64,000 nt of DNA from Stakelama portus (GTDB lineage Bacteria; Pseudomonadota; Alphaproteobacteria; Sphingomonadales; Sphingomonadaceae), in the NCBI RefSeq assembly GCF_003171655.1, contig NZ_QFZL01000003.1, forward strand, positions 434,001 through 498,000. The letters are read 5' to 3'. The stretch's first letter is position 1, and each line of letters begins with the position of its first letter. A program made the translations under genes and the position numbers. Below, piece after piece: positions 59,651-60,613 of this stretch. Below the pieces are notes generated by a model. The model worked only from the letters and a program-made list of their open reading frames with translations, was not told the origin of the DNA and made no database searches.

Positions 59651-60613
59651 TTAGTGCTTTGCGACGCCGATGCCAACCGGCAGCGTTCCTGCACGCAGCG
59701 CAGCGGCAACCGCCAGCCCGTCCGCCCCCGATTCGCGCATTTCGGCAAGCGTCGGCGCGCCGTGTCGCTTGGCGAGCCGTTCGCCCTTTTCATCGGTCAG
59801 CAACCGGTGGTGGCGATAGACCGGAGTCGGCAGGTCGAGCAGCGCCTGAAGCAGGCGATGGACATGCGTCGCTTCGAACAGATCCCGGCCGCGAATGACA
59901 TGGCTGATGCCCTGATCGGCATCGTCGACAGTGACGGCCAGGTGATAGCTGGCGGGCGCATCCTTCCGCGCGAGCACGACATCGCCATGCGCCATCGGGT
60001 CGGCGGCGACATCCCCCGCGATTTCGTCGTGCCACCATAATTCCTCCCCGGCACGGGGAGGGGGACCAGCCCCAGGCTGGTGGACGGGGGGCGCCGCACA
60101 CGCGGCGCTGCCGGGTAGCCGCCCTCCACCACTGGCTTTGGCAGCGTTCCCCCTCCCGATACCGGGGAGGATCTCCACCGCCTTCGCCATGTCGATCCGC
60201 CAGCAATGCGGCTGCGACAGATCGGGCGCGTCCAGCCCGCGACAGGTGCCGGGATAGAGGATGCCGCTGGGGCCATGCGGTGCGCTGGCGCTCGCCGCGA
60301 TATCGGCGCGTGTGCAGAAACAGGGATAGAGCAGTCCCATCGCGCGCAATCGGTCGAGCGCGGCTTGATAATGCCCCAGCCGCTGCGACTGGAAAACGAC
60401 TTCGCCATCCCAGGCAAGCCCCAGCCAGCGCAGATCGTCGAGGATGGTCGCGACATGTTCGGGGCGGCTGCGCGTTCCGTCGATATCCTCGATCCGCAAC
60501 AGGAACTGCCCGCCATGGTCCCGCGCAAAGTCGTGCGCCTGCACCGCCGACCATGCATGGCCCAGATGCAGGCGCCCGGTGGGGCTGGGGGCGAAGCGTG
60601 TGACTATCGACAT
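59651..60613 (-). CDS. gluQ: Glutamyl-Q tRNA(Asp) synthetase with in-frame repeat insertion
   Basis: 320 aa. RFAPSPTGRLHLGHAWSA is the class I HIGH region, and C98-x-C100 ... Y120-x3-C124 is the zinc site. DVVLARKDAPASYHLAVTVDDADQGI and a KRHG-type KMSKS equivalent follow. It adds glutamate to queuosine in tRNA-Asp and lacks the anticodon domain. Residues about 148-191 (ILPGIGRGNAAKASGGGRLP... to ...PPPRAGEE) are encoded by a palindromic repeat at 60043-60172 and have no counterpart in normal GluQ; without them the length is about 276. The frame stays open, so the enzyme may still work. ATG at 60613. Confidence 0.88.
   Translation of the reverse strand: MSIVTRFAPSPTGRLHLGHAWSAVQAHDFARDHGGQFLLRIEDIDGTRSRPEHVATILDDLRWLGLAWDGEVVFQSQRLGHYQAALDRLRAMGLLYPCFCTRADIAASASAPHGPSGILYPGTCRGLDAPDLSQPHCWRIDMAKAVEILPGIGRGNAAKASGGGRLPGSAACAAPPVHQPGAGPPPRAGEELWWHDEIAGDVAADPMAHGDVVLARKDAPASYHLAVTVDDADQGISHVIRGRDLFEATHVHRLLQALLDLPTPVYRHHRLLTDEKGERLAKRHGAPTLAEMRESGADGLAVAAALRAGTLPVGIGVAKH
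60043..60172. repeat. 130-bp palindromic element inserted in frame within gluQ
   Basis: TCCTCCCCGG (60043-60052) is the exact complement of CCGGGGAGGA (60163-60172). Inside, GGGAGGGGGA and TCCCCCTCCC, and GGTGGA and TCCACC, are also arranged as an imperfect long hairpin. A central perfect pair GCGCCGC (60092-60098) and GCGGCGC (60103-60109) surrounds ACAC. I associate this GC-rich palindrome with repeats scattered between genes of sphingomonads; here it lies inside a coding sequence. Copy number could not be checked. Confidence 0.8.

Follow-up and report, generated by a model that had tools for sequence, protein, structure and literature searches.

A palindromic repeat within gluQ

The window, a stretch of 64,000 nucleotides of the Stakelama portus contig NZ_QFZL01000003.1, contains a gluQ gene interrupted in frame by a palindromic repeat (Table 1). 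Its product was assigned to GluQRS by the NCBIfam model NF004315, which scored above its cut-off (333.6 bits vs a cut-off of 250) and matched in two stretches, the remaining GluQRS models reported by this search falling below their own cut-offs. Alignment with the solved GluRS 8i9i likewise gave two matching stretches with the insert in between. A structure search with the GluQ model matched the E. coli GluQRS fold (4a91: Z 26.5, rmsd 2.8, 254 residues aligned; 1nzj: Z 25.6, rmsd 3.4, 245 aligned), and several GluRS chains score equal to the GluQRS structures. A TTG codon lies one codon upstream of the gluQ ATG.

Table 1. Coordinates of gluQ and of the palindromic element within the window.
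Feature	Position	Strand	Remarks
gluQ, glutamyl-Q tRNA(Asp) synthetase	59651..60613	minus	320 aa from ATG; ORF, NCBIfam, fold match
Palindromic repeat, group F1	60041..60172	in-frame on minus	about GluQ residues 148-191
Outer arm TCCTCCCCGG	60042..60051	+	
Outer arm CCGGGGAGGA	60162..60171	+	perfect complement of the TCCTCCCCGG arm, 10 bp
Central hairpin	60091..60108	.	7-bp stem, 4-nt loop

The element is a quasi-palindrome of about 130 bp with a strong hairpin. None of 200 shuffles was as stable, whether folded as DNA (z = -5.7) or as RNA (z = -4.7), and the RNA hairpin of the window copy reaches -93 kcal/mol. The gluQ frame stays open across the whole element, in agreement with the initial annotation, which had described a palindromic repeat read in frame with perfectly complementary 10-bp ends and a central hairpin; both of the latter are read directly in the sequence. 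The annotation had also credited the repeat with about 44 added residues. The insertion stands but its size is slightly smaller, as the net gain is 39-40 codons when set against the linker found in the nearest relative (21 nt) or the commonest linker (18 nt). The ends of the element read ATCC...GGAT or AATTCC...GGAATT, and in full-length F1 copies (n = 42, ends pooled) the bases preceding CTCCCC are A in 82%, T in 100% and C in 99%. Terminal inverted repeats are therefore present, as for a REP/MITE-like dispersed palindromic repeat. Scanning the window against Rfam at gathering thresholds returned no match.

Residues invariant in 83 aligned GluQ proteins include C98, C100, C124, H16, H19 and K282, which we take to be the zinc and catalytic positions that the initial annotation described as kept on either side of the insert. 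Outside the insert, comparison of the window gene with that of genome G179 gave a dN of 0.046 and a dS of 0.371 (271 codons, one pair); for this pair, purifying selection acts on GluQ outside the insert. The AlphaFold2 model built from the 83 sequences has a mean pLDDT of 86.2, with 214 of the 320 residues at 90 or above. The insert, located between helix 142-148 and strand 193-196, falls to 43-58 per ten-residue block, and residues 108-113 are likewise below 50. The Gly/Pro/Ala-rich, insert-bearing loop is consequently predicted to be disordered.

Genomic dispersal of the repeat

A search of the organism's own genome (3.85 Mb, 18 contigs) produced 33 matches at E <= 10, a figure that includes the gluQ copy, places hit on both strands and chance similarities. 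Besides gluQ, five places were accepted, two of them full-length copies and three of them fragments; all five lie between open frames, next to genes that, judging from their sequences, are presumably argD/argF, ilvB/ilvN, hisA/hisF, fumC and trxB. Another match, of 43 bases (C10:11689, L008; E 0.006), falls within a long open frame; it was taken as a chance match since the outer arms are missing, its E value being as low as that of one accepted fragment. The repeat was matched in 58 of 61 genomes, own included (E <= 0.01). At least 40 F1 places, fragments counted, were collected in each of the genomes G020 and G041; 40 places per genome being the number scored, true F1 numbers may be higher in both. 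The element is thus a dispersed, multicopy, mostly intergenic palindromic repeat of the REP/MITE-like kind. These searches uphold the view that it normally sits between genes and dispose of the concern that the 130-bp sequence might be unique.

A codon-bias classifier, which recovered 37 of 43 gluQ cases as positive control, was used to call intragenic copies. Of the 80 F1 places in G020 and G041, 73 were not called intragenic and seven were, in frame. F1 copies within GlyS and within TruB each occupy the same place in both genomes, and further calls concern RNase R, a lipoyl E2 protein and MurB|Ddl.

Phage records contained three partial matches to the element. Plasmid records, for which the best place in each of 19 was considered, were rejected as a source of intragenic F1: the three overlaps with coding sequences examined (H5, H8 and H11, all from S. 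parapaucimobilis) touch gene ends only.

Recurrent occupation of the GluQ loop

The closest GluQ was found in the metagenome-assembled genome Sphingomonas sp. SAT22 (L119), with about 91% DNA identity over 4.8 kb; the G179 gene (L199) matches it at 100%. L119 lacks the long insert and has ATCCTCCCCGACGAATTATGG at the position of the element. Given that the element itself terminates in ATCC...GGAT or AATTCC...GGAATT, this short form looks like an in-frame remnant and not like an empty site. L119 was accordingly ruled out as a clean pre-insertion site, its ATCCTCCCCGAC..GAATT resembling what the ends of the element would leave behind. Short forms with letters similar to those of L119 occur at L069, L201, L203, L206, L209 and L220. 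Relatives therefore do not all carry the same 44 residues.

The insert-free GluQ of L119 was used to query 295 same-genus genomes. A one-piece match at E <= 1e-80 was obtained in 247 and was absent in 48. The inserts of G000, G004, G030, G040 and G050, three of which are among the 48, were read separately, and a second search covered 52 genomes, namely the other 45 of the 48 together with the seven whose match was weakest among the 247. An insert was present in 38 of these 52. Nine had no usable full gluQ (G007, G014, G019, G217, G243, G251 and G268-G270), G025 and G153 have a broken gluQ frame without long insert, and G224, G228 and G254 lack a long insert, G254 having a frame problem further on. 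In the rest of the 247, absence of a long insert is deduced from the one-piece match, part of the genes having been read.

Altogether, 43 of the 295 genomes have a GluQ linker of 81-204 nt, at one shared place located after a helix ending in ..RAL and before L-x-W/F, while the linker of genes devoid of long insert is mostly 12-30 nt. All but one of the long inserts are in frame (42/43), the exception being that of G240 (L248). Folding z-scores are below -3 for 42 of the 43 inserts vs one of 86 equal-length control windows from the same genes; the remaining insert, L268, forms no hairpin.

Sorting by motif distributed the 43 inserts into group F1 (24), F2 (9), F3 (3), F4 (3), F5 (3) and F6 (1). 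The loosest sequence linkage yields four components (with 37, 3 and 2 members, plus the degenerate L268 by itself), in which F3 and F6 join F1/F2; under stricter linkage F3 and F6 split off and F1 and F2 remain joined. From these components, at least three groups appear unrelated in sequence. We do not claim F1 and F2 as unrelated families, since single linkage chains one with the other. F2, F3 and F5 were each multicopy in the three genomes tried.

The GluQ tree comprised 128 rows, not all 295 genomes. With 13 short-form rows omitted, the inserts require at least 14 presence changes and at least 18 group changes on it; this tree is weakly supported, and where its branches have good support they impose no more than 1-4 changes on a group. 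Common inheritance from one ancient insertion was rejected as insufficient, given the unrelated groups in the loop and these 14 presence and 18 group changes on a weak tree. Nevertheless, 22 of the 24 F1 inserts in gluQ are read in one frame, and many of them may consequently descend from few events or be inherited. The single gluQ insertion first described is real but understates the extent of the phenomenon, as several unrelated families occupy this loop and other genes are affected too.

Several individual cases were recorded. The gluQ inserts of G288 (L239, 198 nt) and G077 (L259, 204 nt) resemble a second palindrome nested in F1, in frame. The gluQ frame is broken in G240, G025 and G153, and truB is broken too in G240, through either sequencing error or decay. 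In one Sphingobium, GluQ (L161) carries an insert of the CTTCGACA type.

In-frame inserts in TruB

TruB was surveyed with an insert-free query against the same 295 genomes at E <= 1e-95. It was matched in 111, G041 by a half match only, and 184 gave no match; a one-piece match spanning the site was obtained in 110 of the 295. In a random draw of 70 of the 184, truB was found in 66, and 63 of these have both halves in a single uninterrupted frame that is 321 aa or longer. The remaining three are G193, with the halves on two contigs, and G178 and G240, with broken frames. Scaled up, we estimate that TruB is interrupted in slightly more than half of the genus.

Inserts were read in the 30 best-scoring of the 66 genes. 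All 30 linkers measure 90-168 nt in multiples of three and lie in a single loop, vs 27 nt in insert-free truB (two genes read). With G020 and G041 added, 32 of 32 inserts read are in frame. Their motifs include F1, F4-like, F5-like and others, and z is below -3 in 26 of 31 (L387, a run of N, omitted) vs none of 62 control windows. Each of the three frames is used by F1 (in 10, 6 and 3 cases), which speaks for separate insertions. The phenomenon is more pronounced in TruB than in GluQ. The AlphaFold2 model of TruB is poor (mean pLDDT 66), with its lowest values at the insert.

In the family-wide survey of 199 genomes, TruB gave two matches in 110, one in 87 and none in 2; among the 110 is G421, with two whole TruB copies. 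Linkers from 20 other genera, one case each, chosen from the upper part of the 199-genome list, were all multiples of three, and z was below -3 in 13 of 20 vs one of 40 control windows. These inserts include the CTTCGACA-type family, and five of the 20 have a common non-palindromic segment.

Minor observations concern individual truB genes and records. The two TruB matches of G421 (C3:3597410-3598315 and 3604134-3605039) have equal scores and opposite orientations and are about 6 kb apart. In G082, the frame that contains the N half of TruB is only 163 aa long. The related non-palindromic segment (L397, L401, L405, L406 and L407) spans about 30 residues, often with a GRPDPFDPxAPLELAD-like end, and is possibly an old, fixed insert. 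None of the nine plasmid records matched by TruB came from sphingomonads.

Origin and maintenance of the inserts

We consider it highly probable that the insert in the window is a non-autonomous, dispersed sphingomonad palindrome sitting in a tolerant GluQ loop, its frame kept by selection, and that this loop has been occupied repeatedly, with a similar history in TruB. The REP/MITE-like repeat, presumably mobile, would have landed in a loop tolerating extra residues. Selection on GluQ would then have preserved the frame, so that translation would continue across the repeat and give a disordered loop rich in Gly, Pro and Ala, probably neutral. Thereafter families would have been gained, trimmed to short in-frame remnants or replaced, as would also have happened in the TruB loop in what we estimate to be at least half of the genus. 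Since unrelated repeats stand at the same GluQ and TruB loops, mobile palindromes appear to keep supplying protein segments.

That the insert is translated is suggested mainly by frame keeping, in 42 of 43 GluQ and 63 of 66 TruB, while among non-coding full-length F1 copies 12 of 38 have a length that is a multiple of three. A stop-free reading was rejected as a sign of adaptation: whichever frame is chosen, F1 can nearly always be read without interruption (64-68 of 76 readings in each frame), and for this reason the absence of stops is not evidence for translation.

A more ambitious reading, which we hold tentatively and judge rather unlikely, is that the loops of GluQ and TruB act as true docking sites, to which palindromes are steered by the target DNA or a resident hairpin, families being swapped like cassettes. 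If so, sphingomonads would constitute a continuing natural experiment adding peptides to two tRNA-modification enzymes.

Alternatively, the inserts might be retained because the hairpin or the peptide functions, for instance by slowing translation at a domain boundary or altering tRNA binding, the loop being selected for a palindrome. The presence of unrelated families at the same loop in GluQ and TruB, both tRNA-modifying, agrees with such a role, as do the two-piece TruB matches in 110 of 199 family genomes (two whole copies in the case of G421). We nonetheless regard it as improbable: 252 of the 295 genomes are without long GluQ insert (some assemblies being without gluQ) and 110 have one-piece TruB, short remnants exist, disorder is predicted, hosts also include GlyS, RNase R and the E2 linker, and a common non-palindromic segment takes the place of a palindrome in five of the 20 TruB inserts from other genera.

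It is much less probable still that the insert is removed, by ribosomal bypassing or by excision of the hairpin at the RNA level, to give an enzyme of normal length. The very high stability of the RNA hairpin in the window copy would suit such a process, and the available part of one account mentions that palindromic inserts are bypassed during translation in a yeast mitochondrion (PMC6649704), but bypassing would make the preserved frame of 42 of 43 GluQ and 63 of 66 TruB needless, and short in-frame remnants exist. Ordinary length variation of a loop in GC-rich genes, self-complementary by chance and involving no mobile repeat, would be in line with the natural range of mostly 12-30 nt and with the five non-palindromic TruB inserts, yet it has next to no likelihood given the dispersed multicopy sequences and hairpin z-scores far beyond those of control windows.

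Relation to known coding palindromes

The mobile palindrome that we favor as the source of the GluQ and TruB inserts is of a known kind, as shown by cases from Rickettsia, enterobacteria and Neisseria. Rickettsia palindromic elements (RPE) are described, in the portions of the reports available, as palindromes of 105-146 bp forming several families and occurring in frame in conserved proteins as well as between genes (PMC2229807, PMC10969869); an RPE-bearing guanylate kinase is reported there to be active with a changed substrate affinity (PMC2229807). The likeness to RPE proposed at the outset holds, the sphingomonad element being a dispersed repeat in frame in a conserved protein, and it extends from GluQ to TruB, GlyS, RNase R and E2. 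Compared by description, it differs from RPE in lineage and sequence. Moreover, the accessible parts of the RPE accounts do not describe the recurrence of unrelated families at one loop, which sphingomonads exhibit in GluQ and TruB across many species. The notion that sphingomonads would be the second such lineage does not hold, however: according to excerpts of two reports, frames of the enterobacterial RU-1/RU-2/RU-3 (ERIC, YPAL) and of the 107-bp Neisseria Correia/NEMIS repeats are also fused in frame to genes (PMC2229807, PMC2759123). These small repeats resemble the sphingomonad ones in this respect but belong to other organisms, and, compared by description, recurrent occupation of the same loop is not part of their excerpted accounts. 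In Nematomorpha mitochondria, long inverted repeats lie within translated genes (PMC6649704); as far as the available part of this source goes, both arms there encode conserved amino acids, whereas in sphingomonads the entire palindrome forms extra sequence that a gene may have or lack.

What is unusual here is the use of one loop by unrelated families. Among the matches listed in open-licence literature, we found no report of coding palindromes in sphingomonads (titles and abstract openings) nor of unrelated palindrome families recurring at one protein loop. Our results suggest that, across a free-living genus, protein segments can arise time and again from selfish palindromes, at predictable positions of conserved enzymes. 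Comparing species that have an insert, have none, or have unrelated ones at a single loop would allow a direct test of whether the added segments are of use, do harm or have no effect, and of whether the sites are targeted or simply tolerated.

Two other host genes deserve mention. In GlyS of G020 (L281), there are apparently two repeat-derived segments of different groups, the second F2-like by eye. In G041 (L335), a single open frame runs through murB, an intervening F1 copy and ddl, which gives the appearance of a MurB-Ddl fusion; the MurB|Ddl call may represent a gene boundary or junction without a stop.
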